From NCBI GenBank assembly GCA_021787985.1, contig JAJYLG010000007.1:30883-76211 (forward strand): a DNA stretch of 45,329 nucleotides, written 5' to 3'. The stretch is from Chloroflexota bacterium (GTDB lineage Bacteria > Chloroflexota > Dehalococcoidia > DSGV01). The notes under the pieces were generated by a model that saw only the letters and a list, made by a program, of their open reading frames with translations, did no database searches and was not told the origin of the DNA. A program made the translations under genes and the position numbers. Positions 26,521-42,732 of this stretch are shown in pieces. Within the stretch, counting starts at the first letter, position 1; each line of letters begins with the position of its first letter.

Positions 26521-27702
26521 TCACGGGCCGGCGGCGATCTCCGCATCGCTGAGGTAGCAGGCCGGGTCGGGGCCGTCCAGCTCACCGCTGGCCCGCTCGG
26601 CACGCACCCGCAGGTTCCCGTTGCACCAGGAGAAGAACCTGCACTCCCGGCAGCGCCCGCCGATCCGCCCCTGCCGGTAGCGGTAGAACGCCATCAGCGC
26701 CGGCGACTCATCGCTCCAGATCGCCGAAAACGGCCGCTCGCGCACGTTTCCCAGCGTCTGGTGCCACGAGAACTGGTCCGGATGAACGTTCCCCCGCGGG
26801 TCCACACAGGCGATCCGCACCCCGCTCTGGTTCCCTCCGTTCCAGCTCAGCAGCCGCTCCACCTCGGCCGCGCGGTCCGGCGCCCGCCTGCGCAGCCAGA
26901 GGTAGAGGAACGGTCCGTCCGCGTGATTGTCCACGGTCAACACCTCGCGTCCGTCGCCCTCCGGCCAGCCCGCCACCCACGCGAACAGGTCCTCCACCAT
27001 CGCCCGGGTCTCTTCCGGCGCCAGGTCGTACCCGGCAATCCGTGCCCCGCGTCCGGCGTATGCCAGGTGGTACAGGCACAGCCGGTCGATGCGCTCCTCC
27101 TCCATCAGCCGCAGCAGATCCGGCAGCTCGAGCGCGTTCTTGCGATGCACCGTCACCCGCAGCCCGACGCGCAGCCCGGCACGTCGACACGCGCGGATGC
27201 CCTCCAGCGCGGACTTGAACGCCCCCTTCGACCCGCGAACCCGGTCGTGGGTCTTCTCGAGCCCGTCGAGGCTCACCCCGACGTAGGAGACTCCCTGCGC
27301 GCGCAGCCGCTCCGCCTCGTCCGGCCCGAGGCGCGTCCCGTTGGTCGACAGCACCGCGCGCATCCCCAGCGCTCGCGCCCGGCCCAGCAGCGCGAACAGG
27401 TCGGGCCGCAGCAGCGGCTCCCCACCCGAGAACAGCACCACCGGCGCTCCGAACCCCGCCAGGTCCTCGAGCAGTGCCAGCCCCTCCTCGGTCGACAGCT
27501 CGCCCTCATACTCCCGGTCCTGCGACGACGCATAGCAATGCATGCAGTGCAGGTTGCACCGCTGCGTCACGTTCCACACCACGACCGGCCGCCGCTCCGC
27601 CGCGTAGTGCAGCAGGGCCGCCGGTGCGCGACTGCTCCGCCCGTAGCGCAGCACGTCCCCCGTTGTGACCGTCCCGCGGATCAACGCCGACACGCTCAGC
27701 AT
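26521..27702 (-). CDS. ahbC: Radical SAM protein AhbC/NirJ (12,18-didecarboxysiroheme deacetylase type)
   Basis: 393 residues. The N-terminus shows the AhbC/NirJ phrase DVLRYGR followed by PVVVWNVTQRCNLHCMHCYA, whose CxxxCxxC binds the radical SAM 4Fe-4S cluster. SGGEPLLRPDL is the SAM-binding GGE motif. The C-terminal SPASM-type region, with CVDPRGNVHPDQFSWHQTLG and CRECRFFSWC, binds a second cluster. In the siroheme-dependent pathway AhbC removes two acetate side chains to give Fe-coproporphyrin III. GGAAGGAA precedes the ATG. It overlaps the upstream AhbD-like gene by 7 nt. A NirJ role in heme d1 synthesis is possible, but no nir genes are visible. Confidence 0.85.
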   Translation of the reverse strand: MLSVSALIRGTVTTGDVLRYGRSSRAPAALLHYAAERRPVVVWNVTQRCNLHCMHCYASSQDREYEGELSTEEGLALLEDLAGFGAPVVLFSGGEPLLRPDLFALLGRARALGMRAVLSTNGTRLGPDEAERLRAQGVSYVGVSLDGLEKTHDRVRGSKGAFKSALEGIRACRRAGLRVGLRVTVHRKNALELPDLLRLMEEERIDRLCLYHLAYAGRGARIAGYDLAPEETRAMVEDLFAWVAGWPEGDGREVLTVDNHADGPFLYLWLRRRAPDRAAEVERLLSWNGGNQSGVRIACVDPRGNVHPDQFSWHQTLGNVRERPFSAIWSDESPALMAFYRYRQGRIGGRCRECRFFSWCNGNLRVRAERASGELDGPDPACYLSDAEIAAGP

Positions 27703-28814
27703 CGTGTGCCTTCCTTCCACGCTGCCGGCACGTACGCGCACGAGGGGTCCTCCGCCAGGTAGTCCCCTGTCACCGCCCAGGCGCGCGCTCGCGACCCGCC
27801 GCATACGGCGCGGTATTCGCAGACTCCGCAGCGTCCTTGCAGCAGCGTCCGGTCCCGCAGCGCCAGGAAGAGCGGCGCCTCGCGGTAGATCTGCGCCAGC
27901 GGCCGCTCCCGCACGTTGCCGGCCGCGACCTGCAAGAACCCCGATGGGTACACGTCGCCCACGTGCGAGACGAAGCAGAACCCATCCCCGTCGTTCACCG
28001 CCCGCGTTGGCCGGCTCCCGCTGCCGAACGAGAACCCCGCGCCGGCGATGTGCACCGGTCCCGGACGACCTGCCGCGCGCTGCGCCAGGATGCGCCGGAA
28101 CTGCATCCCCGCCGTCGTCCGCACATCGTAGGTGGCGGTCTCCGCCAGCTCTGCCAACCACCCCATCACGCGCTCGTGCTCGTGCGCGTTCAGCATCTGC
28201 TCGACCTGTGCCCGGCCGGTCGGCACGAGGAAGAACACGCTCCACATCACCGCCCCGGCCGTGCGCACCAGCTCCGCCAGCATCGGCAGCTCGTGCACGT
28301 TGACGCGGCTGACGGTCGTGCCGACCTGCAGCGGGAGCCCGAGCTCCCGCGCCTGCGCCATCGCAGCGAGGGTCCGCGCGAACGATCCGCGTACTCCGCG
28401 GAAGCGGTCGTGCGTGTCTGCTGTCGCCCCATCCAGCGACAGGTGCAGCCGGTGGACCCCCGCCTCCTTCGCCCACTCGAGCGCGGCCCGCGTGAGCCGC
28501 CCCGTCGCGCTGGGCGAGAACCCAACCTGCAACCCACGCTCCCGCGCGTGGGCGATGAGCTCGAAGCAGTCGGGCCGCATCAGCGGGTCCCCGCCGGTCA
28601 CGACCAGAACCGGGGTCCCCATGGCGGCCACCGCGTCGATCAGTCCCGACCCTTCCGCGCTCGTCAGCTCGCGCGGGTCCCGCCGCGGCTGCGCCTCCGC
28701 CCGGCAGTGCACGCACGCAAGCGCGCACGCCCGCGTAATCTCCCAGGCCAGCGTGAAGGGCGCTCGCCCGAAATCGAGGTCCATCAGTGAGGGACGCGGT
28801 GCGTTCGCTTCCAC
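27696..28814 (-). CDS. Radical SAM/SPASM protein, AhbD-like (heme synthase type)
   Basis: 372 residues. Motifs: FTLAWEITRACALACVHCRA (CxxxCxxC cluster near 35), TGGDPLMRPDCFEL, SLDGATADTHDRFRGVRGSF, SRVNVHELP, and a C-terminal CGVCEYRAVCGG SPASM cluster. Pairing with ahbC suggests AhbD, which converts Fe-coproporphyrin III to heme. Related SPASM subfamilies with the same opening also occur near heme genes, so exact function is uncertain. The start is not clear: GTG at 28814 has a weak site, ATG at 28784 has none. The stop overlaps the ahbC start. Confidence 0.75.
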   Translation of the reverse strand: MEANAPRPSLMDLDFGRAPFTLAWEITRACALACVHCRAEAQPRRDPRELTSAEGSGLIDAVAAMGTPVLVVTGGDPLMRPDCFELIAHARERGLQVGFSPSATGRLTRAALEWAKEAGVHRLHLSLDGATADTHDRFRGVRGSFARTLAAMAQARELGLPLQVGTTVSRVNVHELPMLAELVRTAGAVMWSVFFLVPTGRAQVEQMLNAHEHERVMGWLAELAETATYDVRTTAGMQFRRILAQRAAGRPGPVHIAGAGFSFGSGSRPTRAVNDGDGFCFVSHVGDVYPSGFLQVAAGNVRERPLAQIYREAPLFLALRDRTLLQGRCGVCEYRAVCGGSRARAWAVTGDYLAEDPSCAYVPAAWKEGTRC

Positions 28815-28830
28815 GTCTTCAGTATTCGTC

Positions 28831-28849
28831 GGCCCCGTGCCGGGGGGCC
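28831..28849 (-). promoter_or_regulatory. GC hairpin in the leader of the radical SAM genes
   Basis: GGCCCC (28831-28836) and GGGGCC (28844-28849) form a 6-bp stem with a 7-nt loop, 17 nt upstream of the GTG start at 28814. It could affect translation of the AhbD-like gene. Confidence 0.3.
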
Positions 28850-29088: not shown

Positions 29089-30027
29089 ATGAGGCGTCGC
29101 CGCACTTCGGTGCTGGTACTGTACACGCATCCACTGTTCGGCCAGGTGATCAAGCAACTCCTGGCCGGCGAGGCCTGGCTGCGAGTCGCGGCCGTCGCCG
29201 CCGTGGACGCCGACGCCGTCGAGCAGGCGCTCGCCTCCGCTCCCGACATGGTGATCGTCGAGGAGGGTGTGCGACTCGATCTCCAGCTCCTGCGCGACCT
29301 CGCTCCCCGCACCCTGGTGATCGACCTCAGCGTCGACGCCAGCGGAGCGCGCCGGCCTCGGCCGGGGGCAGTCGCGGCCAATCCCGAGACGCTGGTCGAC
29401 GTCATCCGCGCGCACGGACCGCGCCGGGGCTCCTCCGCCAGACGGCCGCGGTCGTGGCCTCCTCCCGTCGTGGCCGCGGAAGCGCGATACGAGCCCCAGG
29501 TCATCGAGCGGGCGTTGGGCGACGGCCACGCGGCGGCGCACCGGCCCGGTGTCGCGCCCGAGGTCCGGCGCCGGCGTTTCCTGACCACCGGCATCGTGGC
29601 GATCGCCGGCTACATCGCGACGCTGGTGGGCGCCCCGGCCCTGGTGTACGTCCTCTCGCCGGCGCTCCGCCGCAGCGGCGAGAAGAAGTGGATCGCCGTG
29701 GGCTCCGCCTCGGACCTCAAGGTCGACTCCCCCAAGAAGGCGGAGTTCACCGTCTCGCGCCGCGACGGCTGGATCGAGCGAACCGACCGCCAGTCGGCCT
29801 GGCTGGTGCGGCGAGACGACGGCTCGCTGCTGGCGTTCAGCCCTCGCTGCACCCACCTGGGCTGCGCCTATGACTGGAAGCCCGACGAGAAGCGATTCGT
29901 CTGTCCCTGCCACACGGGCGTCTTCGCCATCGACGGCGCAGTCCAGGGCGGGCCACCCCCTCGGCCGCTTGACCGCTACCCGGTGCGGAAACGAGCGGAC
30001 GGCGTGGTGGAGGTGCAACTGCTGTAA
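29089..30027 (+). CDS. Rieske iron-sulfur protein with an N-terminal receiver-like domain
   Basis: 312 residues. Residues about 155-312 are a normal Rieske subunit: an Arg run plus FLTT (160-167, Tat-like), one membrane helix (about 167-190), then cluster motifs CTHLGC (254-259) and CPCH (272-275). Cys254, His256, Cys272 and His275 are the expected ligands and Cys259/Cys274 the disulfide. Residues about 5-100 are unexpected: strand-helix alternation (VLVLYTHPLFGQVIKQLLAG and on, APDMVIVEEG) resembling a response-regulator receiver but with Tyr-Thr-His for the acid pair and Glu for the phospho-Asp. GGAGGAG before the ATG supports this long form. It heads the quinol oxidase-type complex with QcrB and QcrC. 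Confidence 0.82.
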   Translation: MRRRRTSVLVLYTHPLFGQVIKQLLAGEAWLRVAAVAAVDADAVEQALASAPDMVIVEEGVRLDLQLLRDLAPRTLVIDLSVDASGARRPRPGAVAANPETLVDVIRAHGPRRGSSARRPRSWPPPVVAAEARYEPQVIERALGDGHAAAHRPGVAPEVRRRRFLTTGIVAIAGYIATLVGAPALVYVLSPALRRSGEKKWIAVGSASDLKVDSPKKAEFTVSRRDGWIERTDRQSAWLVRRDDGSLLAFSPRCTHLGCAYDWKPDEKRFVCPCHTGVFAIDGAVQGGPPPRPLDRYPVRKRADGVVEVQLL

Positions 30028-30107
30028 CGCCGTGCGGCCGCCTGCCTGGCCGCAAGACGGGCGGCCAGCGTCGCGAGCCACACATCAACATCGAGCGGAG
30101 AGACGAG

Positions 30108-30779
30108 ATGGCAGTACGCCCATTCGAATGGATCGATAGCCGGCTCCGCTTGCGGCCGGCGCTGAAGGACATCGTGGAACACCCGGTCCCGGAGCACGTG
30201 GACCCGGTCCGGCATCCCTCCGCCTTCGTCTATTGCTTCGGCGGGCTCACGTTCCTGTTCTTCATGCTGCTCGTCGTGTCCGGTGTCTTCCTCGCCTTCT
30301 ACTACGTGCCGAGCCCGGACCACGCGCACGACAGCGTGCAGTACATCACCAAAGAGGTCACGTTCGGCGCGGTGGTGCGCGGCATCCACCACTGGTCGGC
30401 CAGCGCGTTCGTCGTCATGCTCGTCCTCCATATGCTGCGTGTCTTCCTGCAGGGCGCCTACAAGCATCCGCGAGAGATGAACTGGGTCGCCGGCGTCCTG
30501 CTGTTCGCCCTTGGCCTCACCATGAGCTTCACCGGCTACCTGCTGCCGTGGGATCAGAAAGCCTACTGGGCCACGATGGTCGGCACGACCATGATCGGCA
30601 GCACCCCGATCGTCGGCGACTTCCTGCTCCACGCCGCCCGCGGGGGCAGCGACCTCGGCGCCGTCACCCTGGCGCGGTTCTACGCGCTGCACGTGCTGAT
30701 CGTGCCCGGTCTGATGTTCGCCCTCCTGGGGCTGCACTTCATGATGGTGCGCCGCCAGGGAATCTCGCGGCCACTGTAG
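30108..30779 (+). CDS. qcrB: Cytochrome b6-type subunit of menaquinol:cytochrome c reductase
   Basis: 223 residues, four transmembrane helices, the length of b6/Bacillus QcrB. Heme b ligands are His94 and His108 in helix B (GIHHWSASAFVVMLVLHML) and His195 and His210 in helix D. Cys43 in SAFVYCFGGLTF matches the residue that binds the extra heme ci covalently in b6 and Bacillus QcrB. GYLLPWDQ precedes the quinol site. It oxidises menaquinol with the Rieske protein and QcrC. Confidence 0.93.
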   Translation: MAVRPFEWIDSRLRLRPALKDIVEHPVPEHVDPVRHPSAFVYCFGGLTFLFFMLLVVSGVFLAFYYVPSPDHAHDSVQYITKEVTFGAVVRGIHHWSASAFVVMLVLHMLRVFLQGAYKHPREMNWVAGVLLFALGLTMSFTGYLLPWDQKAYWATMVGTTMIGSTPIVGDFLLHAARGGSDLGAVTLARFYALHVLIVPGLMFALLGLHFMMVRRQGISRPL

Positions 30780-30793
30780 GGAGGAGAACGCCA

Positions 30794-31609
30794 ATGGCGA
30801 TCGAGGAGAGGGAGCCCGGGAGAGACCCGAACACGGCGATCCGCGCCGCGGCCCGGCCGCGAGTCGACGACGGCCACGGCCGCCCGCCCGCCGACGCCTC
30901 CGCGGGGCTGCAGGCCACCAGGCACCGGCGCGAGAGCCCCGAGCCGTTCTTCCCCGACTTCCTCTTCAAAGAGGCGATCGTGGCGCTGGCCGCGTTCATC
31001 ATCCTGGTGCTGGTGGTCATCTACTTCAGAGTGCCCCTGGAGCCCGTGGCCGACCCCACCAGCTCGACCTACGTGCCACGGCCCGAGTGGTATTTCCTCT
31101 TCGTCTTCGAGCTGTTGAAGCACGTCCCGGGTTCCCAGGAGCCGATCGCAACCACGGTCCTGCCGGTCGGGTTCGGCGCCCTCCTCATCCTGCTGCCGTT
31201 CATCGACCGCGGCCCGGCCCGCGGCGCGCGACGCCGGCCGCTGGCCACGACGGCCGCGGTGGTGCTTCTGTCCGGCGCCGCCCTGCTGACCGTGCAGGCG
31301 ATCCGGACAACGCCTCACACCGGCGGCGAGCAGGCCGCCGTGGGGCCCAAGCTCGACCCAACCCAGGAGGCCGGACGCCTCCTCTATCAGCAGATGAAGT
31401 GCGATGCCTGCCACAAGATCGGCGCCGAGGGAGGCGCGACCGGGCCCGAGCTCACCCACGTCGGGACCCGCCGCGATGCCAAATGGATCCACACCTTCCT
31501 GGAGAACCCAAGCGCCATCGTTCCCAAGTCCCCGATGCCGGGCTACCTCGACAAGCTCTCCCACAACGAGATCGAGCAGATGGCCCAGTACCTGGCGGCG
31601 CTGAAATGA
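30794..31609 (+). CDS. qcrC: Subunit IV-cytochrome c fusion of the bc complex
   Basis: 271 residues. A charged, Pro-rich start of about 65 residues is followed by the subunit IV helices with the quinol-site segment YVPRPEWYFLFVFELLKHVP near 97-116, then a cytochrome c domain with heme motif CDACH (203-207) and the distal Met in SPMPGYLDKLSHNEIEQM. This is the architecture of Bacillus QcrC. AGGGAGGAGAACGCCA precedes the ATG, 14 nt after qcrB. An open frame far upstream in the same phase is out of frame with qcrB and spurious. Confidence 0.92.
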   Translation: MAIEEREPGRDPNTAIRAAARPRVDDGHGRPPADASAGLQATRHRRESPEPFFPDFLFKEAIVALAAFIILVLVVIYFRVPLEPVADPTSSTYVPRPEWYFLFVFELLKHVPGSQEPIATTVLPVGFGALLILLPFIDRGPARGARRRPLATTAAVVLLSGAALLTVQAIRTTPHTGGEQAAVGPKLDPTQEAGRLLYQQMKCDACHKIGAEGGATGPELTHVGTRRDAKWIHTFLENPSAIVPKSPMPGYLDKLSHNEIEQMAQYLAALK

Positions 31610-31691
31610 GCACGCGCTTTCCAACCCGTCGTGCCTGCAACAGGCGGGCCCCGGAGTCGCGCCGGCAGACCCCGCAGCGAGGCGAAACCCA

Positions 31692-32555
31692 ATGAGCGAG
31701 CTCGAGGCCCTGCTCTTCACGCAGCGAATGCTGGTCCTGGTCGTCGCGGCCGGCCTAACCGTGCTGCTGGCCGGCGCGATCCTGCGCATCCTCTACGGCG
31801 AACCGGCGCTGTCCTCTCAGGCGAGAGTCTGGGCGGCGGCGGGGCTGGTCCTCATCATGGCGCTGCCGGTGCCCCTGATGCTGCTGCTGCGACCCGGAGA
31901 ATCAGCGACCATCACGCTGGGACGCGTGCTGTACCAGCAGAACTGTCAGCAGTGCCACGGCCCGCTCGGCAACCGTATGCCGGGCGTCTACCTGGGCTCG
32001 CGGGGCTACCTGCAACAGCAGGGCGACGCGACGCTGGCGCAGGTGATCCGTGAGGGCAAAGGCGTGATGCCGGCCTGGGGACGAACGCGCGAGGGCCCGC
32101 TGAGCGACGAGCAGGTCGACATGGTCCTGCGGTATCTCCAATCCGCCGCGCGGCCCGGCCCCACGGTGACGCCGTCGCCCACTCCCAGCGCGACGCCTGC
32201 CTCGGCGCCGGCGGGGTCTGCCCCCGAGCAGGCGGGGAGCCCGCCCGCCGCCACCCCCACGGCGGAGCAGAGCGGCACCCCAGCGAAGCCCGCCCCCGCG
32301 CAGGCGGAGGGAGACCCGGCCACCGGGCAGAAGCTCTACGAGGTCTCCTGCAATGCCTGTCACCCGGGCGGCGGCAAGGGCGTGGGTCCGGCGCTCTCCG
32401 GCAAGGACTTCCTCGCCAAGTTCGGCCAGGACGCGGCGCTGACCAAGGTGGTGCGCGCCGGTACCGACAAGGGCATGCCGGGGTTCGCCGCGGACCGGCT
32501 CACCGACCGTCAGCTCACCGACATCATCGCCTACATCCGCTCGCTGACCCGGTGA
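31692..32555 (+). CDS. Membrane-anchored diheme cytochrome c
   Basis: 287 residues. Two N-terminal membrane helices (about 11-34 and 46-66) precede a cytochrome c domain with CQQCH and GVMPAWG as distal Met region. A Pro/Ala/Thr linker of about 50 residues follows, then a second domain with CNACH and KGMPGF. The first domain closely resembles the repeated modules of the next gene. It likely takes electrons from QcrC to soluble or surface carriers. Confidence 0.88.
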   Translation: MSELEALLFTQRMLVLVVAAGLTVLLAGAILRILYGEPALSSQARVWAAAGLVLIMALPVPLMLLLRPGESATITLGRVLYQQNCQQCHGPLGNRMPGVYLGSRGYLQQQGDATLAQVIREGKGVMPAWGRTREGPLSDEQVDMVLRYLQSAARPGPTVTPSPTPSATPASAPAGSAPEQAGSPPAATPTAEQSGTPAKPAPAQAEGDPATGQKLYEVSCNACHPGGGKGVGPALSGKDFLAKFGQDAALTKVVRAGTDKGMPGFAADRLTDRQLTDIIAYIRSLTR

Positions 32556-32565
32556 AGGACGCACG

Positions 32566-33939
32566 ATGAAGGTGGCGATACCCTCCACGAGCGAAGACCG
32601 CGGGGGCGCGCTCGGCCCGCCGGGGGACCGCCGACCGCGGCGGGCGCTGCTGGCGGCCGTGTCGCTGCTGTCGCTGGCGTTCGTCGCCTGGCTCGCGGCC
32701 TCGACGGTGACACGAATCGGTCGCCGGACCGACCTCCTCGCCGCGGGAAGAAGCCTCTACCAGAGCAATTGCACCGAGTGTCACGGCGACCGCGGCTCGC
32801 GCATCCCCAGCATCCCGCTCGACTCGCCGCAGTTCCTGGCCGGGCTGGGGGGCGACGCAGCCGTGCGTCAGGTCGTCGCCGAGGGCAAAGGCATCATGCC
32901 CGCCTGGGGAAAGGAGCGGGGCGGGCCGCTATCGGACGAGCAGATCCGCCGCGTCGTGGAGTACGTGCTGTCGCCGGACGGCCTGATGGCGCCGCGCATC
33001 GGGAACGGACGCACGCTCTTCCTGCGCTATTGCCAGACGTGCCACGGCCCCAAGGGCAACCGCATCCCCGCCGCGCCGCTGAGCTCCGCGAGCTTCCTGC
33101 AGCAGCAGGGCGAGGCGGCGCTCGAGACGACCATCCGTGACGGACGTCGGTCGATGCTGGCGTTCGGCAAGGCCACAGGCGGGCCGTTCAGCGACACGGA
33201 CATCAAGCAGGTCGTCCTCTACCTCCAGGTGATGGCCGGCGCGATGTCGGGGGCTGCCCCCTCAACGCAGGCCGGCCCCGGACAGGAGCTCTTCGCGAAG
33301 AGCTGCGCGGCCTGCCACGGGGCGAAGGGCGACCAGATGAGCAACGCCAACCTGGCCTCCAAGGACTTCCTCAGCCGTTTGGGCAAGGAGGGGCTGGTCA
33401 AGACGATCATCCAGGGGAAGGGCGGCATGCCCGCGCTCGGCCAGGCCGCGGGCGGGTCGCTCAGCGACAGCGACATTCAGTCAGTGGCGGACTACCTCTT
33501 GCAGACCGCGGGCGCAGCCGCGAGTGGCGGGCCCAGTCCGGCTCCCACCGCTCCGCCCGGCGCGCTCAAGCCTGAGGCCGCCGGCGCCGCTCAACTCTTC
33601 CAGAAGACGTGCGCCGGCTGCCACAGCAAGCTCACGCTCCCCAAGATCGACCCCACGCTGGTGCGCAAGACGATCGAGAAGGGGATCGCGGACAAGGGGA
33701 TGCCCGCCTTCGCCGGGCGCCTCTCGGACGCCGACCTTGAGGCGCTGGTCAGTTATGTCGCGTCAGGCCAGGCCGCCGGCGCCCAGAACAACGGCAACCC
33801 CTTCTCCGGCGTCGTGCAGCACGTCAGCGGCTGGATCACGCGCCATCCCACGTTCGTGAAACAGAGCGGCTCGCAGCTCTGCCTCCAGTGCCACCAGCTC
33901 ACGTTTTGCTCGGGCTGCCACACCGCGACCAGCCGGTGA
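32566..33939 (+). CDS. Hexaheme cytochrome built from repeated cytochrome c modules
   Basis: 457 residues. One N-terminal membrane helix (about 25-45), then three near-identical modules of about 75-90 residues (CTECH, CQTCH and CAACH, each followed by a conserved Asp-Arg/Lys-Gly and MPAWG/MLAFG/MPALG), a fourth domain with CAGCH and GMPAF, and a C-terminal tail with closely spaced CLQCH and CSGCH. Starts 10 nt after the diheme gene. Hexaheme count is by motif. It was probably formed by tandem duplication of the module also seen in the previous gene. Likely an electron shuttle at the outer side of the membrane. Confidence 0.9.
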   Translation: MKVAIPSTSEDRGGALGPPGDRRPRRALLAAVSLLSLAFVAWLAASTVTRIGRRTDLLAAGRSLYQSNCTECHGDRGSRIPSIPLDSPQFLAGLGGDAAVRQVVAEGKGIMPAWGKERGGPLSDEQIRRVVEYVLSPDGLMAPRIGNGRTLFLRYCQTCHGPKGNRIPAAPLSSASFLQQQGEAALETTIRDGRRSMLAFGKATGGPFSDTDIKQVVLYLQVMAGAMSGAAPSTQAGPGQELFAKSCAACHGAKGDQMSNANLASKDFLSRLGKEGLVKTIIQGKGGMPALGQAAGGSLSDSDIQSVADYLLQTAGAAASGGPSPAPTAPPGALKPEAAGAAQLFQKTCAGCHSKLTLPKIDPTLVRKTIEKGIADKGMPAFAGRLSDADLEALVSYVASGQAAGAQNNGNPFSGVVQHVSGWITRHPTFVKQSGSQLCLQCHQLTFCSGCHTATSR

Positions 33940-34055
33940 CGGTGAGGAGCCCTCGATGGCGGCAGCTCAGGCACGGCAGGCACGGCAGGCACCGCGGCGA
34001 CCTCCACTCCAGCTCGCCGCCCGCCGGCTGACACCCGCGGCAGGGAGACACTCCC

Positions 34056-34922
34056 GTGATGAAGCTCCGCCTGCCGCGTAGGCGGCCGCCGGCGTCGCTG
34101 CTGACGCTCGGCCTGCTCGCCATGGTCCTGACGGCCGGGTTCCTCGTGGCGCGCTCCCACGGCGCCGGCCCGGTCCGCGGTGTCTCGGCCTCCACCCCGA
34201 CGATCCACGTCGCCGACCCGACGTTGATCGCGAGCGTGCGCTGCGAGCGCTGCCATGTCCTCAGTCGGCCGACCGCCGCCAACGCCGGCCTGCTGCCCTC
34301 CACCAAGGAGGGCTGCCTCGCCTGCCATCCGACCCAGCGCAAGCTGCTGACCGTGGCGGGCGTGCATCCGCCCTTCGCCCGCGGCGAGTGCACCGCGTGC
34401 CACGCCGCCCACCAGGCCGACCAGCCCAAGCTGCTCAAGGTGCCGGCCGGCGACCTCTGCACCACCTGTCACGCCGACAAGCGCAAGGACCAGGCGTCTC
34501 CCGGGGCTCATCCGCCCTTCGCCCAGGGGAGCTGCCTCGCCTGCCACGACCCACACGGCAGCGCCATCCGGCCCACCCTGCGGGCGGACGTCAAGACCCT
34601 CTGCTTCTCCTGCCACCAGCGCGTCGCGTCTCGCGACCTCGGCCTGGCGGTGCAGCACCCGCCGTTCGCCCAGGGGAGCTGCACCGCCTGCCACACGCCG
34701 CATGCCTCGACCGACCGGCCCCTGCTCCGGGCGCCGCTGCGTGACGTCTGCATGAGCTGCCACCAGGGCCGCCTGTTCCGCATGGACATCACCCACTGGC
34801 CGGTGGCCCAGGGACTTTGTCTGAGCTGCCACCTGCCGCACGCGTCGAAGTATGAGTCGCTGCTGCGCACGAATCAGTCCGAGCTATGCATGTCTTGCCA
34901 CCCAATGTGGGCGAAGCGGTAG
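34056..34922 (+). CDS. Decaheme cytochrome with paired CXXCH repeats
   Basis: 288 residues with ten CXXCH motifs, arranged as five doublets typical of the doubled-CXXCH family. Two or three copies share HPPFAxGxCxACHxxHxS. The N-terminus has an Arg-rich start and one hydrophobic helix (about 13-32), so it is a membrane-anchored, externally facing protein. AGGGAGACACTCCCGTG precedes the ATG. Of the 94-nt run before it, 33970-34000 holds a GGCACGGCA 10-bp tandem repeat. Ten hemes in about 240 residues give a dense, wire-like chain; the acceptor is unknown. Confidence 0.9.
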   Translation: MMKLRLPRRRPPASLLTLGLLAMVLTAGFLVARSHGAGPVRGVSASTPTIHVADPTLIASVRCERCHVLSRPTAANAGLLPSTKEGCLACHPTQRKLLTVAGVHPPFARGECTACHAAHQADQPKLLKVPAGDLCTTCHADKRKDQASPGAHPPFAQGSCLACHDPHGSAIRPTLRADVKTLCFSCHQRVASRDLGLAVQHPPFAQGSCTACHTPHASTDRPLLRAPLRDVCMSCHQGRLFRMDITHWPVAQGLCLSCHLPHASKYESLLRTNQSELCMSCHPMWAKR

Positions 34923-35046
34923 CGCAGGCGGGCAGCGCGACAGGGGCCAGCCGGATTCGGGGGATCTGGCTCCCCTATACCCGAAACATGACCTTCGATT
35001 CATGCGAGGACTTGTGAGCCATTTCACGATGAGAGAGGGAAAGGGG

Positions 35047-35067
35047 CGCCCGAGTCCACTTCGGGCG
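35047..35067 (+). promoter_or_regulatory. Hairpin before the TPR gene
   Basis: CGCCCGA (35047-35053) and TCGGGCG (35061-35067) form a 7-bp stem with a 7-nt loop, about 20 nt before the TPR start. A weaker stem GGGGA/TCCCC is at 34960-34975. Together they could end the decaheme transcript or set the level of downstream expression. Confidence 0.35.
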
Positions 35068-35077
35068 AACGGCGAGG

Positions 35078-36058
35078 TTGGACAACGTGGTCACGCGACA
35101 CCGAGGAAAGCTGACGGCAGATCGTCGGTCGATCCTTGACCGGCTGGTCCTCTGGACGGCGCTGGCGCTCATCCTCGCCATCGTCGGCTTCGTGAGCTTC
35201 TACTTAGCTGACCGGCCGCGCGCCGGCAACCCGAGCACCCTCGGCCAGGACACCGCCCGTGTCGAGGAGGCGGTCCGCGCCGACCCGAACGATTTCGGCG
35301 CTCGTGTGGCCCTCGCCGGGCTGTACTACGCCGACCGCCGCTATCGCGAGTCGGTCGAGCAGTACCGCGCGGCCCTGACCCTCAAGAAAGACAACGTGCC
35401 GGCGCTGGTGTCCCTCGGACGCGCGCTGGTCGCCGCCCATGACCCGGATGGGGCGATCGAGTCCCTCCAGAAGGTGATCGACGCCGCCAAGGGCGCCGAC
35501 GTCGCCGGAGACCTGGTCGAGGCCGCTTACTACTACCTCGGCCGCGCCTACATGGACAAGGGGCAGGCTGACCAGGCCATCTCGCAGCTCGAGCACGCCG
35601 TGTCCATCAGCCGCTCCGATTCGGACGCCTGGTACCTGCTCGGCGACGCCTACCTGCAGCAGGGCGACCTCGACCAGGCGATCAGGTCGCTGACGCAGGC
35701 CGTCCTCTTCGTGCCGGACTACGCCGAGGCGTACGACAAGCTGGTGGTCGCCTACGACCGCAAAGGCGCGGCGGCCGAGGGCCACTATGCGCGCGGCATG
35801 GCGGCCTTCGCGCGCAAGCGCTACTCCGACGCCGCGAAAGAGCTGCAGGCGACGCTCCAGGCGTCGCCTGACCTGGTGGTCGCGCAGGTCGGCCTCGGGC
35901 TGGTCTACGAGAGCCAGGGAGCGCACGCGCAGGCGGCGGCCGCCTACCAGCAGGCCCTGCGGCTCGAACCGAGCAACTTCAACGCGCGGGCGGGGCTGGC
36001 CCGCCTGGGCAGGCCGCTCCCCGCTGAGCCCACGACCGCCCCGACGGTGACACCATGA
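35078..36058 (+). CDS. Membrane-anchored TPR protein
   Basis: 326 residues. One transmembrane helix (about 23-43) is followed by at least six tetratricopeptide repeats (e.g. FGARVALAGLYYADRRYRES, ALVSLGRALVAAHDPDGAIE, AAYYYLGRAYMDKGQADQAI, AWYLLGDAYLQQGDLDQAI), ending in a Pro/Thr tail. TPRs bind partner proteins. The start is uncertain: TTG at 35078 abuts the only SD-like AGG, so GTG at 35087 may be the true start. It overlaps the next gene by ATGA. Between cytochrome genes it may help assemble or place cytochromes. Confidence 0.82.
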   Translation: MDNVVTRHRGKLTADRRSILDRLVLWTALALILAIVGFVSFYLADRPRAGNPSTLGQDTARVEEAVRADPNDFGARVALAGLYYADRRYRESVEQYRAALTLKKDNVPALVSLGRALVAAHDPDGAIESLQKVIDAAKGADVAGDLVEAAYYYLGRAYMDKGQADQAISQLEHAVSISRSDSDAWYLLGDAYLQQGDLDQAIRSLTQAVLFVPDYAEAYDKLVVAYDRKGAAAEGHYARGMAAFARKRYSDAAKELQATLQASPDLVVAQVGLGLVYESQGAHAQAAAAYQQALRLEPSNFNARAGLARLGRPLPAEPTTAPTVTP

Positions 36059-37152
36059 CTACCAACGAGCTTCCCAACCTCGGTGGCGGAGCGGCAGGAG
36101 CCAGGCCGCCCGCCGAGTCCAAGCGCCGGCGGACCTGGCTCGGCTGGGCGCGAGCGTGGCTGGCGGACCGGCCGACCTGGCTGAAGCTCGCCGTCCTGCT
36201 GGTGCTGCTCGCCCTGCTGGCCTACGTGGTGCTGCTCATCGCCCAGTACTGTCGCACTGGCAAGCCCGTCTCCGAGCTTCCCATCGTGCCGGCCCCCGTC
36301 CAGCAGCTTCTGGTGAAGCCGCCCCTCTACGCCAGCTCGTTGGCCGGCGTGCAGCGCCCGCTGGGCGTCGCCGTCGCGCCGGACGGCAAGGTCTTCGTCA
36401 CGGAGACCGGCGGCGAGCGCAAGGTCCACGTCTTCGACAGCAGCGGCCAGGAGATCGGCGCCTTCGCCCCGCCGGACACGACGCCCGGCTCGCGCACGCC
36501 CGTCTACGTGGCCGTGAGCCCCCAGGGCAAGGTCTACGTCAGCGACCGCAGCGCGAACGCGATCCAGATCTTCGGCGAGGACGGCTCGTACCTCGGCACC
36601 GTGCCCTCGCCGCTTGCCGGCGGGCACCCCTGGCAGCCGCTGGGGCTGACGTTCGACAAGGCCGGGAACCTGTACGTGACCGAGGTGACGGACGGGCAGC
36701 ACCGCGTGCTGGTGCTGGACCCGGAAGGCAAGCTCAAGCTCGAGTTCGGCAAGCAGGGCACCGCCGACGGCGAGTTCTGGTTCCCCAACGCCGTCACCGT
36801 CGACGGCGACGGCCGCATCTACGTCGCGGACAGCAACAACGGCCGTGTCCAGGTCTTCGACCCGGCGGGCAAGCTCCTGTACAAGATCGGCCGCGGCCTG
36901 GCGGCCGGGGACCTCTCCATGCCGCGCGGCATCGCCGTCGAGGGCAGCCGGCTGTTCGTGGTCGACGTCTCGCGGCAGGCGGTCCAGGTCTACCAGACCG
37001 GCGCCACACCGAAGTTCCTCTACGTCTTCGGCGAGGATGCGGCCGGGAACAGCACGTTCCAGTACCCAAACGGGCTCGCGATCGACAGCCGCGGCTGGGT
37101 TTACGTCACCGACCGCGAGAACAATCGCGTCCAGGTTTGGAGGCCGCAATGA
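36055..37152 (+). CDS. Membrane-anchored NHL-repeat beta-propeller protein
   Basis: 365 residues. One membrane helix (about 41-64), then about six NHL repeats forming a propeller; the repeat pattern PxGVAVAPDGKVFVTE, VYVAVSPQGKVYVSDR, LTFDKAGNLYVTE, VTVDGDGRIYVADSNN and IAVEGSRLFVVD is plain, ending GLAIDSRGWVYVTDRENNRV. Its start overlaps the TPR stop (ATGA), so the two are made together. Propellers of this type usually bind proteins or polymers. Position suggests a scaffold or chaperone for the flanking multiheme proteins; there is no catalytic motif to suggest an enzyme. Confidence 0.88.
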   Translation: MTTNELPNLGGGAAGARPPAESKRRRTWLGWARAWLADRPTWLKLAVLLVLLALLAYVVLLIAQYCRTGKPVSELPIVPAPVQQLLVKPPLYASSLAGVQRPLGVAVAPDGKVFVTETGGERKVHVFDSSGQEIGAFAPPDTTPGSRTPVYVAVSPQGKVYVSDRSANAIQIFGEDGSYLGTVPSPLAGGHPWQPLGLTFDKAGNLYVTEVTDGQHRVLVLDPEGKLKLEFGKQGTADGEFWFPNAVTVDGDGRIYVADSNNGRVQVFDPAGKLLYKIGRGLAAGDLSMPRGIAVEGSRLFVVDVSRQAVQVYQTGATPKFLYVFGEDAAGNSTFQYPNGLAIDSRGWVYVTDRENNRVQVWRPQ

Positions 37153-37285
37153 CGAACGAGGTCGCACGGGCCTGCGGCGAGCCGTTCCAGGAAGGCGTGG
37201 ACCGGCTCGCGCACAGCGCCTTACCGCGAACAAACCCGAAGGAGGTGCGGCAGATCGACTACCAACGAAAAGGAGGTGGTACGCC

Positions 37286-38233
37286 ATGAAGGCGTTAACC
37301 ATCGCCATCGCGGCCCTAGTCTGGGTCGCGGCGGTCGCGCTCGGCGTGGGAAAGGGGACGGTCTACGCGGACGCCGGCCCGCACCAGCACAACACGGGCG
37401 TGACGGCGGACAACTGCGCGGCCTGCCACCGGGCCCACACCGGCAACGCGCCGGAGCTGCTCGTCCAGGCGCAACCGGCCCTCTGCTACACGTGTCACGG
37501 CACGGGTGGGAGTGGCTCGTCGCTGGACGTGCAGGACGGCAAGTCCACTAGCCCGGCCGGTGCGCTGCGCGGCGGCGGGTTTGGCACTGCAATGATCGAC
37601 AGCGCGCACCCGACCGGACAACTGGCCGACCCGCCCAACACCGGCGGCACCATCCCGGTCCTTACCACCGCAGCGACGGTCAGCTCGTCCCATAGCGTGG
37701 ACAGCACCACCGTCACCGCCTGGGGCAACGGGGCGACCGGTGCGGGCGCGCCCATCCAGCTCCGCTGCGGCTCCTGCCACGACCCGCACGGCAACGGGAA
37801 CTATCGCATCTTGCGGCCGGACCCAAAGCAAAGCGGAGTGGCGCTGCCGGGCATCGCGATCGCGGATACTGGCACGCATACCTATGTGACGACCAACTAT
37901 TGGAACGTGAGCTACACGGAGAACGCCAACGTCGATCCGAACATCTCCGCGTGGTGCAGCACGTGCCACACCCGCTACCTGGCGGACAACGGCGGCCCCA
38001 CAACGCCTCTTAGCGGCGACACGATCTTCACCTATCGCCACGAGACGAACGACACGGCGGCTGGACTGCCGATCTGCATCCAGTGCCACGTGGCACACGG
38101 GTCGAACGCCAGCGTGGCTGGCACGACGTACTCGAGTAACGTGAACTGGCCCAACGGATCGCCGGGCGGCACGGACAGCAGGCTGTTGCGGATCGACAAC
38201 CGCGGCGTCTGCCAGATGTGCCACAACCGCTAA
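37286..38233 (+). CDS. Secreted hexaheme cytochrome
   Basis: 315 residues. A Sec signal peptide (MKALTIAIAALVWVAAVALG, cleavage near VYA-DAG at about 29-32) precedes six CXXCH motifs: CAACH, CYTCH, CGSCH, CSTCH, CIQCH and CQMCH. Ser/Thr/Asn-rich spacers separate the motifs widely, as in extracellular multiheme proteins. AAGGAGG lies 8 nt before the ATG. A second AAGGAGGTG 31 nt upstream fronts a 14-codon GTG frame ending in an ATGA overlap; I do not count it as a gene. CXXCH-followed-by-xxH segments (e.g. CHRAHTGN, CHDPHGNG) resemble those of the octaheme protein that follows. Confidence 0.88.
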   Translation: MKALTIAIAALVWVAAVALGVGKGTVYADAGPHQHNTGVTADNCAACHRAHTGNAPELLVQAQPALCYTCHGTGGSGSSLDVQDGKSTSPAGALRGGGFGTAMIDSAHPTGQLADPPNTGGTIPVLTTAATVSSSHSVDSTTVTAWGNGATGAGAPIQLRCGSCHDPHGNGNYRILRPDPKQSGVALPGIAIADTGTHTYVTTNYWNVSYTENANVDPNISAWCSTCHTRYLADNGGPTTPLSGDTIFTYRHETNDTAAGLPICIQCHVAHGSNASVAGTTYSSNVNWPNGSPGGTDSRLLRIDNRGVCQMCHNR

Positions 38234-38246
38234 CGATCGAGAGCGG

Positions 38247-38277
38247 CTGGGGGGAGGCCAGCCTTCCCTCCCCCCAG
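38247..38277 (+). terminator. Strong hairpin between the hexaheme and octaheme genes
   Basis: CTGGGGGGAGG (38247-38257) and CCTCCCCCCAG (38267-38277) form a perfect 11-bp stem with a 9-nt loop, 14 nt after the stop and 20 nt before the next start. There is no T-tract. It may attenuate read-through or protect the upstream mRNA, giving more hexaheme than octaheme protein. Confidence 0.5.
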
Positions 38278-38297
38278 GCCAGCACGGTGAGCAACGG

Positions 38298-41200
38298 ATG
38301 TCGAGGAAGGCGATGCGATCGGCGGACCGCCGGCCCTGGAGGACAAGGAACGTCGCGGCAGCCCTGACCGTGGCCCTGCTGCTGGCCTGGGCCGTGGCGG
38401 CGGGCGCGGCGGCGGCCCTGGGCGGTGACGCGGGACTGCGCGGTGCGTCCGTCCTGGCGGCCGTCACGAGCACCTCTACCGCGACTCCGACGCCTACCGC
38501 CGGACCGTCTTCGACCGCCACCGCGACGCCGAGCCCCTCGAACACACCCACACCGACCGCGACCGCCACCCCGGCAAGCGATCCAACCCCGGCGCCCGCG
38601 CCGACCGCGACCACCGGCCCTCCCCCGGGATGGACCCGCGTCGGTCCCGCCGGAGCCGAGGTGACCGCCGGCCCGGTCAGCGTCCGCTTCCCGCCCGGCG
38701 CGGTCGGCCAGCCGGTCGACGTCGCGATCGCGCCGCTCCTCGACCTCTCCGGCCCCGGCTCGGCGCGCGCGCTGATCGCGTTCCGCCTCGACGTCACCGA
38801 TGCGGCTGGCGGCTCCGCCGTCACCACCTTCAGCCGCCCGCTGGGCATCAGCGTCAAGCTGGCCGCTCCAGAGCTGGGCGGCGCGCGTCCCGAGAAGCTC
38901 GTCCTCGCCCGGCTGCGCCAGGACGCGCCGTGGAGCGCGCTGCCGTCGCGCGTCGACGCCGCGTCCCTTACCGCCGAGGCGGCGGAGAGCGGCACCTTCG
39001 CCGTCCTTTCGCACGCTCCAGCGCGGCCGGTCGATGTGACCTTCGACCGCGAGACGGACGCGCCGGCCGAAGGGCGACACCGCGTCGAGCCGGGCGGCCC
39101 GCTGCGCGTCACAGTCAGCATGAAACCCACGGGCGACATTTACGCCGCCGTGCTCTTTGAGTCCATCCCCCCCGGGTGGACCGTGCAGGACAGCGGCGGC
39201 GCCACCCGCTCGGCCGACAGCTCGCAGCTCATCTGGCAGCTCGGCGACGTCGACGCCGGCGCCGCCATCACGCGCGACTACACGGTCATCGCGCCGCCCT
39301 TCGCCGCCGTCGCCCGGACGGCCCGCTTCCAGACGCGCCTGGTGCACGAGGCGGGCGCGGTCGAGGGTCCGGCGTGGTCCGCCCTGGTCGCGCCGAAGGT
39401 GATCGTCGCCCATGTGACCATCGGCCGGATCGACCGCGAGACCGGCCGGGCGGACTACGGCTCGGAGGACTCGCCGCTATCGGGTGAGCCGCGCTTCGAG
39501 GTCTTCCGCCTCCGCTTCCAGGTGCGCAACGCGGACTCGACGGCGGCACAGTGGGCGCCACGGCTCGAGTACCGCCCAGCCGGGAGCGGCGCGTTCGAGC
39601 CGGTGCCCGACCGTGATCCGAAGCTCGGCGTGCCGTTCTACGCCGCGCGCGAACGCCGCGTCGACTCCGACGACGAGCTCATCGCCCCCGCCGACGTCCG
39701 CATGCACGAGCGGGACGATGCCGAGGAGCGGCCGGCAGACGGCCAGCGCTTCACCGGGCCGAACCCGGCCCCGAAGCTCGCGCTGCCGCCGCGCTCCTAC
39801 ACCGAGGTGGAGTTCAGCGTGCGCGCCACGGCCGATGCCGCCTGGCTCGCCTCGTACGAGTTCCTCCTCAGCGACAACGGGCGCCCGCTGCCCGGAGCAG
39901 CGACCGCCACCGTAGCGCTCGGGCCCGAGCCGCCCGTGACCCTCTCGCCGGGACAGCGCGAGGGCACCTGGGTCGCCCCGGGGCGCGGGACCGCCGCCGA
40001 TCCGGCCTCGGGCCGGCATCCGCTGCTGGCGGCGGCCGGTCCGCCGGCTCCGCCCGCGCCGCCGAGCCTGCTGGCCGCCGGGGCGTTTACCTCGCCGCAC
40101 GGCGGCTACGGCGCGGCGGCCGACACCTGCGCGCTCTGCCATCGCACGCACACCGGGGACAACAAGAACCTGCTGACGTACGGGGAGCCGCAGAGCAACC
40201 TCTGCCTGAGCTGCCACGACGGCACCGGCGCCAGCAGCAACGTCGCGGGTCAGTACAGCGACGCGAACGTGCCGGCGAACGACAGCGCGACGAGCTCCTT
40301 CTACTCGCACGCCGCGACGACCGCGACGAGCCACACCAGCGCGCTGGTGAACGAGTTCGGCGGGGTGCTCAACCGCCACAGCGAGTGCGGCGACTGCCAC
40401 AACCCGCACCGGGCCAGCGGCGCCGCGCCCGCGATGACGAGCAGCGGCTGGACCGCGTCCGGCCCGCTGACCGGGATCTCGGGTGTGACAGTGACCAACG
40501 GCGGCGCCGGCACCGCGCCCAGCTACACCTGGACGACGGGCATCAGCTACGAGTACCAGCTCTGCCTCAAGTGTCACTCGGGTTTCACGCAGCTCCTCAG
40601 CTACACCAAGCAGTCGTACATGAAGCTGGACAAGGGGACGGAGCTCAACCCCAGCAACGCCTCCTACCACCCCATCGAGGCGCCGGGAACGAACACGACC
40701 ACCCGCATGGCGAACAGCCTGGCCGGCACCTCCCCCTACAAGCTCTGGAACTTCACCACGGGCTCGACGGTCCGGTGCGTGAGCTGCCACGGCGACTACC
40801 GCCTGGCGGGTTCCGCTCCGGCCGCTGGGGCGCAGCTCGCGCCGCACACCAGCCAGTACCGGGGCCTGCTGATGAACAACTACCGCGGCCGCGACCTCAA
40901 GCCGGTGGCGGCGACCAACAGCTACACCGCCTCCGACTTCGCGCTCTGCTTCCAGTGCCACGCCGAGGCGCCGTTCGTGGACACGTCGGGCAACCAGCGA
41001 ACGGACACCAACTTCCGTTTCCACGGCTTCCACCTGAGCAAGATCTACGACAACCCCGGCGGCGGCGGCGCCAGCACGGACATCGACACCGCCGACGCCG
41101 GGCAGGGCAACGCCATCTGCGCGGAGTGCCACTACCGCATCCACTCGACGACCTACGGGGTGAGCGGGGTCGGCAACGCGCGCCTGGTGAACTTCGCCCC

Positions 41201-41321
41201 GAACGTGCAGCCCAACTCGATGGGGCAGGGCCCTACCTGGACCTACACGGCCGGCAATCCGGACACCGGGCGCTGCTCGCTACGGTGTCACGGGCAGAAC
41301 CACGGCAACTATGGCTATTGA
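38298..41321 (+). CDS. Large secreted octaheme cytochrome with beta-rich N-terminal region
   Basis: 1007 residues. A signal peptide or anchor (about 20-42) and a Thr/Pro/Ala linker (about 55-110) lead to a ZU5-like beta domain (VTAGPVSVRFPPGAVGQPVD), a DUF11-like beta domain (VEPGGPLRVTVSMKPTGD and ITRDYTV) and further beta segments to about residue 590. The last 400 residues hold seven CXXCH motifs (CALCH, CLSCH, CGDCH, CLKCH, CVSCH, CFQCH, CAECH) plus a final CSLRCH, a CX3CH-type variant. The beta part may display the heme part at the surface. ATG at 38298 has GGTGAG upstream; ATG at 38313, after GAGGAAGG, is equally possible. hemA follows 25 nt downstream. Confidence 0.85.
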   Translation: MSRKAMRSADRRPWRTRNVAAALTVALLLAWAVAAGAAAALGGDAGLRGASVLAAVTSTSTATPTPTAGPSSTATATPSPSNTPTPTATATPASDPTPAPAPTATTGPPPGWTRVGPAGAEVTAGPVSVRFPPGAVGQPVDVAIAPLLDLSGPGSARALIAFRLDVTDAAGGSAVTTFSRPLGISVKLAAPELGGARPEKLVLARLRQDAPWSALPSRVDAASLTAEAAESGTFAVLSHAPARPVDVTFDRETDAPAEGRHRVEPGGPLRVTVSMKPTGDIYAAVLFESIPPGWTVQDSGGATRSADSSQLIWQLGDVDAGAAITRDYTVIAPPFAAVARTARFQTRLVHEAGAVEGPAWSALVAPKVIVAHVTIGRIDRETGRADYGSEDSPLSGEPRFEVFRLRFQVRNADSTAAQWAPRLEYRPAGSGAFEPVPDRDPKLGVPFYAARERRVDSDDELIAPADVRMHERDDAEERPADGQRFTGPNPAPKLALPPRSYTEVEFSVRATADAAWLASYEFLLSDNGRPLPGAATATVALGPEPPVTLSPGQREGTWVAPGRGTAADPASGRHPLLAAAGPPAPPAPPSLLAAGAFTSPHGGYGAAADTCALCHRTHTGDNKNLLTYGEPQSNLCLSCHDGTGASSNVAGQYSDANVPANDSATSSFYSHAATTATSHTSALVNEFGGVLNRHSECGDCHNPHRASGAAPAMTSSGWTASGPLTGISGVTVTNGGAGTAPSYTWTTGISYEYQLCLKCHSGFTQLLSYTKQSYMKLDKGTELNPSNASYHPIEAPGTNTTTRMANSLAGTSPYKLWNFTTGSTVRCVSCHGDYRLAGSAPAAGAQLAPHTSQYRGLLMNNYRGRDLKPVAATNSYTASDFALCFQCHAEAPFVDTSGNQRTDTNFRFHGFHLSKIYDNPGGGGASTDIDTADAGQGNAICAECHYRIHSTTYGVSGVGNARLVNFAPNVQPNSMGQGPTWTYTAGNPDTGRCSLRCHGQNHGNYGY

Positions 41322-41346: not shown

Positions 41347-42732
41347 ATGGAGATCCTGGTGGTCGGCACGAGCTACAAGACGGCGCCGCTGACCCTGCGC
41401 GAGCGCCTCGCCTTCCCCCCCTGGGCGCTCGGCCCCGCCCTCGACGAGCTCGCCGCCGTCGTGCCCGAGGGCGTCATCCTCTCCACCTGTCACCGCGTCG
41501 AGCTCTACGCCGCCGCGCCCGACCCCCAGCTCGCCATGGCCGCCCTCGAACGCTTCTGGTGCCAGCAGCGCGGCCTGCCGCTCAGCCTGCTCGAACCCCA
41601 CCTCTACCGCCTCACCGCCAGCGCCGCCGCCCAGCACCTCTTCTCCGTCGCCTGCGGCCTCGACTCGGCCGTCATCGGTGAGGCCCAGATCCTCGGTCAG
41701 GTCCGCGATGCCCTGCTCGCCGCCCTCCAACACCACGCCGCCGGCCTCACCCTCTCCGCCCTCTTCCGCCACGCCCAAGCCGCTGGCAAGCGCGCCCGCG
41801 CCCAGACCACCATCGGCCGCCGCGCCGCCTCCACCAGCTCCGCCGCCGTCGAGCTCGCCCTCCACCTCTTCGGCGACCTGCGCTCCTCCCGCGTCCTGCT
41901 CGTCGGCGCCGGCAAGATGGGCCACCTGGTGGCACGCAACCTCCTCCAGAAGAGCGTCGCCGGCATCGCCGTCGTCGGCCGTACCTCGGACCGCGCCCGC
42001 CAGCTCGCCCTCGACTGCGGCGGCGACGTCGCCCTCGCCCGCCTCGAGGAAGGGCTCCGCTCCTGCGACATCGTCATCACCTGCACCACCGCCCCCCACT
42101 ACGTCCTCCACACCCAGACCCTCGCCCGCGTCATGGCCGAACGCCCCGCCCGCCGCCTCCTCCTCATCGACCTGGCCGTCCCGCGCGACGTCGAGCCCGC
42201 CGCCGCCGACCTCCCCGGAGTCCGCCTCTTCAACATCGACGACCTCCAGCACATCGTCGACGCCAACCTCAGCAGCCGCCAGGCCGAGGCTGCCAAGCTC
42301 GCTCCCCTCCTCGCCCAGGAGCTCGCCCGCTTCCAGCGCTGGCTCGCCACCCAGTCCGTCGTCCCCACCATCGCCGCCCTCCGCCGTCACGCCGAGGACA
42401 TCCGCCGCCGCGAGCTGGCCCGCACCCAGGCCGTCCTCGCCCCTCTCTCCGACGACGACCGCCGCCGCATCGAGGCCCTCACCCTCGCCATCCAGAAGAA
42501 GCTCCTCCACGACCCCATCGCCCTGCTCCGCGCCGCCGCCCTCGGCGGTCAGGGCGACCTCACCGCCCGCTTCGTCCGCCGCCTCTTCGCCCTCGACGAC
42601 ACAGACCACGGCTACCGCGCAGGGCCGGCAGACGGCGAGATCGCCGGTCCTCGACTCCCCTCCGGCCACGGCCGAAGAGGCGCGGTGGGGCAAGCCCCCG
42701 CGCATGTGCCCATGGATACACATGTGCCGTGA
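41347..42732 (+). CDS. hemA: Glutamyl-tRNA reductase
   Basis: 461 residues. Makes glutamate-1-semialdehyde from glutamyl-tRNA, the first step of tetrapyrrole synthesis. Landmarks: VVGTSYKTAPLTLRERLAF, catalytic Cys48 in LSTCHRVELY (the family usually reads CNR), GEAQILGQVRDA, and the NADPH-binding VLLVGAGKMG. IDLAVPRDVEP and the C-terminal dimerisation helices are present. GGGAGGAG precedes ATG 41347; a frame starting at 41311 lacks such a site. The last about 45 residues run beyond the family end and include a GTGGGGCA repeat. Sharing the operon with cytochrome genes ties heme precursor supply to cytochrome production. Confidence 0.92.
   Translation: MEILVVGTSYKTAPLTLRERLAFPPWALGPALDELAAVVPEGVILSTCHRVELYAAAPDPQLAMAALERFWCQQRGLPLSLLEPHLYRLTASAAAQHLFSVACGLDSAVIGEAQILGQVRDALLAALQHHAAGLTLSALFRHAQAAGKRARAQTTIGRRAASTSSAAVELALHLFGDLRSSRVLLVGAGKMGHLVARNLLQKSVAGIAVVGRTSDRARQLALDCGGDVALARLEEGLRSCDIVITCTTAPHYVLHTQTLARVMAERPARRLLLIDLAVPRDVEPAAADLPGVRLFNIDDLQHIVDANLSSRQAEAAKLAPLLAQELARFQRWLATQSVVPTIAALRRHAEDIRRRELARTQAVLAPLSDDDRRRIEALTLAIQKKLLHDPIALLRAAALGGQGDLTARFVRRLFALDDTDHGYRAGPADGEIAGPRLPSGHGRRGAVGQAPAHVPMDTHVP

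Follow-up and report, generated by a model that had tools for sequence, protein, structure and literature searches.

The closest described system to the locus considered here is the CwcA pathway of Thermincola ferriacetica and Thermincola potens (ImdcA, PdcA, CwcA and OcwA), in which a Gram-positive-type envelope is combined with a decaheme carrier and the OmcS-like hexaheme CwcA is a proposed polymer across the cell wall (PMC7911101). OmcS itself, from Geobacter sulfurreducens, is a hexaheme cytochrome whose 12 axial ligands are all histidines, one of them donated by the neighbouring subunit (PMC6584659). In Dethiobacter alkaliphilus, multiheme clusters for extracellular electron transfer with NHL and TPR genes have been described, and for these genes help in secretion or complex assembly has been suggested (PMC10376724). 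We analysed a 45,329-nucleotide stretch (hereafter the window) of contig JAJYLG010000007.1 from an uncultured bacterium of the Chloroflexota, probably of the class Dehalococcoidia (assembly GCA_021787985.1), the phylum being the one that an earlier note, made from the letters alone, had correctly named as the probable host. Its + strand carries a block in which genes for a bc complex lead into multiheme cytochromes, with a TPR and an NHL gene in between, and which shares a hexaheme of the same kind (c6b), a decaheme and the NHL and TPR partners with these systems. We think it fairly probable that the block encodes an extracellular electron route of the CwcA/OmcS type that is fed by a bc complex, in a host that has no Omp85 outer membrane.

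Central to this proposal is c6b (37286-38233, with the start corrected to 37286), a secreted cytochrome with six CXXCH motifs and no further transmembrane segment, which we regard as a candidate filament subunit. A family profile built from eight homologs gave OmcS (6ef8) as the best PDB match (E 5.6e-9), and with 44 homologs the match improved to 6.6e-13, the next PDB match being at 5e-8. Profile-profile comparison with an OmcS clade, made up of OmcS (residues 8-376, taken from the PDB alignment) and relatives at 27-53% identity, gave a P of 2.7e-34 across 245 columns in which all six hemes line up, while other multihemes, used as controls, matched the c6b profile only locally, over 50 columns (the first heme pair) or 76 columns. 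All 44 c6b homologs hold exactly six proximal and six distal histidines in the order distal-[CXXCHxxH]-[CXXCH], three times over, and the same order of all 12 axial-type histidines is found in G. sulfurreducens OmcS and throughout the OmcS clade. The N-terminal distal histidine, His33 of c6b (GPH, codon 37382-37384), is invariant in the 44 sequences and follows the probable signal peptidase site by only a few residues. In the tree the two clades stand apart, with the window protein grouping with those of related loci L050, L051, L062 and L080; c6b thus differs from Geobacter OmcS in its separate deep clade, and further in its constant TPR partner and in a host lacking an Omp85 outer membrane. 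Judged by sequence, c6b belongs with Thermincola CwcA and OmcS, so that the profile relation and the histidine pattern lend support to the nanowire-like hexaheme suggested in the earlier note. Because of this relation, and because NHL/TPR clusters have been reported in Dethiobacter (PMC10376724), the description of the route as uncharacterised was too strong.

The second line of evidence is the genomic company that c6b keeps. Directly upstream lie a TPR protein (35078-36058), the first gene of the conserved module, and an NHL beta-propeller (36055-37152), both with N-terminal membrane anchors and overlapping by 4 bases. The hexaheme gene is preceded by TPR and NHL genes at 22 of 29 loci in Chloroflexota, 10 of 12 in Bacillota and 6 of 11 in Actinomycetota, and several of the remaining loci are cut by a contig end or have larger gaps. 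These three phyla, which consist mostly of single-membrane bacteria, share TPR-NHL-hexaheme as a conserved module. Among 400 Chloroflexota genomes the NHL subfamily occurs in 16 and the hexaheme in 16, with both in 15, a near-exclusive co-occurrence (hypergeometric 4e-25, a value that ignores relatedness and rests on an NHL profile trained on such neighbours), and the seeming exception G219 does carry an NHL gene. The TPR and NHL genes that the earlier note had pointed out in the middle of this one block are constant partners of the hexaheme. The T. ferriacetica gene order runs 10-heme, 12-heme, 17-heme (a count from a gene spanning the border of two separately read stretches), TPR, NHL, hexaheme, which agrees with the spacing of the locus tags between Tfer_0070 (ImdcA) and Tfer_0075 (CwcA) and places cwcA, identified by position through this gene spacing, directly after TPR and NHL genes. 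NHL genes also precede several OmcS homologs (L112, L126), and by gene adjacency the block resembles the osc (omcS companion) system, in which an NHL/propeller gene stands beside an OmcS-type hexaheme. The osc cluster reportedly includes a prolyl isomerase chaperone, whereas a Pfam scan of ten block proteins found no prolyl isomerase (PPIase) domain. Roles in folding, secretion and morphology have been proposed for the Osc proteins, with OscH cited for folding (PMC13194489).

It is conceivable, if still somewhat doubtful, that TPR-NHL-hexaheme is a general assembly-and-wire cassette that builds OmcS-family filaments through the wall, with an inner di-heme docking motif that could be attached to various sources of electrons, in this block the bc complex and class-I cytochromes. 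Neobacillus/Bacillus isolates (L093, L095, L096, L098, L100, L102, L103 and L106), which are cultivable hosts, carry the module together with upstream 12-heme cytochromes that have the di-heme motif at their end. In Chloroflexi FW602_bin.16 the module lies beside the gene for a protein of 1485 residues and 19 hemes, which has a Laminin_G_3 domain and a part resembling the hexaheme (L016:9380-13837, the same gene as L058:6814-11271).

Within the block (29089-41321), Pfam matches identify Rieske, cytochrome b6, subunit IV fused to cytochrome c, tandem class-I cytochromes, paired-CXXCH cytochromes, TPR and NHL proteins, with intergenic gaps mostly below 160 bases. Scanning the whole window in six frames gave 33 CXXCH motifs, of which 32 fall in frame within six + strand block genes (30794-41321) that hold 1, 2, 6, 10, 6 and 7 in order; the octaheme gene c8 ends with a CX3CH motif (CSLRCH), which brings the total for the block to 33 c-heme motifs, all on the + strand. 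The 33-heme block running from a bc complex to multihemes with TPR and NHL between, as first described, is thereby upheld. The counts of 2, 6, 10, 6 and 8 motifs given for the cytochromes after the bc genes also stand, with the amendment that the eighth motif of c8 is CX3CH and not CXXCH, and the two six-heme proteins turn out to be of unlike kinds, c6a consisting of class-I domains and c6b being of OmcS/CwcA type. The only paired-CXXCH domains in the genome are those of c10, c6b, c8 and a fragment of 68 residues at the edge of a contig.

At the electron entry the block departs from many of its relatives. It opens with a Rieske iron-sulfur protein (29089-30027; PF00355, E 2.9e-12, residues 201-298, with one transmembrane segment at 164-182), followed by a QcrB-like cytochrome b6 (30108-30779; PF00033, E 1.2e-50) and a QcrC-like subunit IV fused to a monoheme cytochrome c (30794-31609, the start corrected to about 30794; PF00032 and PF00034, one CXXCH), which by Pfam are the three components of a menaquinol bc complex. 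The Rieske open reading frame from 29089 includes about 160 extra N-terminal residues (29089-29570) ahead of the Rieske anchor that have no Pfam match, and in relatives this part is matched by a separate open reading frame ahead of the Rieske gene. The genome holds three cytochrome b genes, the other two on other contigs, so the bc complex of the block can be a dedicated one. A bc-type set with a multiheme cytochrome also occurs in L068 and L080, and in related Chloroflexota a Rieske gene lies ahead of TPR, with DnaJ-TPR, ccdA, ccsB, a NapC decaheme and hemA after c8. In seven loci (L062, L094, L174, L178, L179, L181 and L186) a Rieske gene directly upstream of TPR was seen with no recognised cytochrome b gene. 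Elsewhere the alternative quinol-oxidising genes are of the NapC/NirT type: a decaheme of this kind lies just upstream of the module in Anaerolineae, and in Neobacillus 10-heme and 12-heme proteins of this kind lie near the module, upstream. The window instead places the bc complex, c2, c6a and c10 in the position held by the NapC-type decaheme; the Pfam scan of the block proteins found no gene for a NapC/NirT-type inner-membrane decaheme (ImdcA), and in comparison with Thermincola the bc complex with c2 and c6a takes the place of ImdcA, c8 that of the nonaheme OcwA, and all genes lie in one block. In Dethiobacter the putative quinol oxidases are CymA-like, in contrast to the bc complex here, and the available text defines no TPR-NHL-hexaheme module (PMC10376724). 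The gene content and block order thus bear out the earlier view that a bc complex is tied to secreted multihemes.

Between the bc complex and the module lie three further cytochromes. The first, c2 (31692-32555), is a membrane-anchored di-heme class-I cytochrome c of the His/Met type (2x PF13442) with two hydrophobic segments and the methionine ligands in GVMPAW and KGMPGF, and the second, c6a (32566-33939), is also anchored and comprises four class-I domains (4x PF13442) and a C-terminal CXXCH-x4-CXXCH di-heme motif (33880-33921). This motif is shared with NapC-type decahemes and with 12- and 20-heme proteins that elsewhere lie just upstream of TPR, proteins which tend to end in or contain CXXCH-x3/4-CXXCH. 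Homologs of c6a stand directly upstream of TPR in L175 and, with one small gene between, in L021; those upstream of TPR in genomes G219 and G007 have no di-heme ending, and a 13-heme homolog, in which four class-I domains are joined to nine further hemes, lies in another G007 locus (L019). The third, c10 (34056-34922), is an MtrA/DmsE-like decaheme with ten CXXCH motifs, whose best PDB match is the Mtr complex chain 6r2q_A (E 1.1e-19). It resembles the MtrA/DmsE family in these two respects but falls below the family cut-off (TIGR03508, 115 bits against 192.2), so it was not accepted as a true member, and its host lacks the outer membrane for a porin complex. By its heme count c10 agrees with the periplasmic decaheme carrier of the Thermincola type and is a possible counterpart of PdcA.

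The last cytochrome of the block, c8 (38298-41321), is a large secreted octaheme with seven CXXCH and one CX3CH and a non-heme N-terminal part of about 590 residues, as seen from the heme scan, Pfam and orthologs, and is a candidate terminal or surface cytochrome. Of 11 orthologs compared, 10 retain the CX3CH as their eighth motif, and the extra domains vary, such as PKD in L068. The earlier note had also proposed a filament prediction for the octaheme; a profile search gave no PDB match of c8 to any filament cytochrome, and a single-sequence PDB search with its heme part gave nothing useful. Nor does c8 correspond to an OcwA-like nonaheme surface reductase, being an octaheme with no PDB match to OcwA. 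In three Chloroflexota loci (L055:13321-17829, L067:13245-18260 and L072:11228-14686) the octaheme cassette is fused to a subtilisin-like protease (Peptidase_S8 and prodomain). The subtilisin-like protease OzpA of Geobacter processes the octaheme nanowire protein OmcZ (PMC9473688), and we considered c8 as OmcZ and rejected this, with no OmcZ chain among the PDB profile matches.

The block runs beyond 41321 on the same strand to the window end, which is also the contig end, with genes for heme supply and cytochrome maturation: hemA for glutamyl-tRNA reductase (41347-42732; TIGR01035, 391 bits against a cut-off of 210), a DnaJ-TPR membrane protein that is a conserved neighbour in related loci (43217-44203), a ccdA-like thiol-disulfide protein of cytochrome c maturation system II, named from sequence, gene order and homologs (44240-44950), and a ccsB/ResB-like maturation gene, named from sequence and gene order and cut by the contig end (44958-45329). 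No Omp85 was found in the genome, in a search that gave matches in half of the control genomes, and because of this result the host fits a single-membrane cell and is probably a single-membrane bacterium. On the other side, on the - strand, a two-component pair (23499-26154) diverges from the block, consisting of a GAF histidine kinase with the Cys-rich stretch CICKPDECPGLVKPYCDCC and a LuxR-type regulator; going by its sequence, such a pair seems to adjoin L068 also. Two radical SAM/SPASM-like proteins adjoin the block (26521-28847, - strand), the one at 27696-28847 scoring above the TIGR04053 cut-off, with its match to the heme b synthase AhbD below cut-off.

In the mechanism we favour, menaquinol electrons would enter through the bc complex (Rieske, b6 and subunit IV-cytochrome c) and pass to the class-I cytochromes c2 and c6a, with c6a as the proposed relay to the multihemes, handing electrons to the decaheme c10 through its C-terminal di-heme motif. 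From c10 they would reach c6b, whose subunits may stack head to tail to form a heme chain crossing the cell wall, and c8 could serve as the outer or terminal partner that delivers them to an external acceptor. The membrane-anchored TPR and NHL proteins would hold, fold or secrete the hexaheme, while hemA would supply heme and CcdA/CcsB would attach it.

Several points weigh against this mechanism, some concerning its direction and others the filament. Class-I His/Met cytochromes usually have a higher potential than bis-His multihemes, so outward flow from c2 and c6a is not obviously downhill, and for this reason the main rival is an inward chain, in which Fe(II), minerals or partner cells would feed electrons through c8 and c6b to c10, on to c6a and c2, and then to an aa3 or cbb3 oxidase, the bc complex optionally running in reverse to reduce quinone. 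The position of the class-I domains between the bc complex and the multihemes favours flow from the bis-His hemes to them, and the genome has both aa3- and cbb3-type oxidases, each on another contig. We nevertheless regard inward flow as unlikely: many relatives hold upstream of TPR a NapC/NirT-type cytochrome, of a family that normally oxidises quinol, and Thermincola, the closest characterised pathway, is proposed to run outward. Linkage to a terminal oxidase, which the earlier note had named as a mark of ordinary respiration, was searched for by using CcoN and CtaD of the same genome as queries and was found in no locus, nitrite reductases not having been searched systematically.

As to the filament, a single-sequence PDB search with c6b did not reach OmcS, and Foldseek with an AlphaFold model of c6b (predicted local distance difference test score, pLDDT, 69) gave no OmcS match, but a control OmcS homolog modelled worse (pLDDT 44), so this comparison weighs on neither side. 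Among Geobacter OmcS relatives wire-formers are hard to separate by sequence from possible non-formers, paralogs with no known wires being among them (PMC12977616), and there is dispute over what OmcS itself does (PMC11077965). That c6b and c8 are instead monomeric, wall-associated or periplasm-like carriers for a soluble acceptor, with TPR and NHL as general cytochrome-maturation or scaffold factors, would suit the missing structure-based support, those paralogs and the adjacent ccdA/ccsB and hemA, but is less probable still than inward flow given the 12-histidine pattern and OmcS profile match of c6b, an NHL subfamily that tracks the hexaheme, and a Pfam scan that recognised no soluble-acceptor reductase in the block.

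Within the open-access literature, the features of this proposed bc-fed CwcA/OmcS-type route that seem new are a TPR-NHL-hexaheme module sharply defined across phyla, a di-heme motif common to the cytochromes upstream of it, and the pairing of a bc complex and class-I cytochromes as the electron source. What is known of the passage of electrons through a thick wall in cells lacking an outer membrane comes mainly from Thermincola, whose CwcA resisted purification in soluble form. Together with its relatives, cultivable Neobacillus strains included, the locus provides partners that are defined and recurrent (TPR, NHL, di-heme docking motif and octaheme), and the block suggests that there are uncultured Chloroflexota in which extracellular electron transfer is driven by a bc complex.

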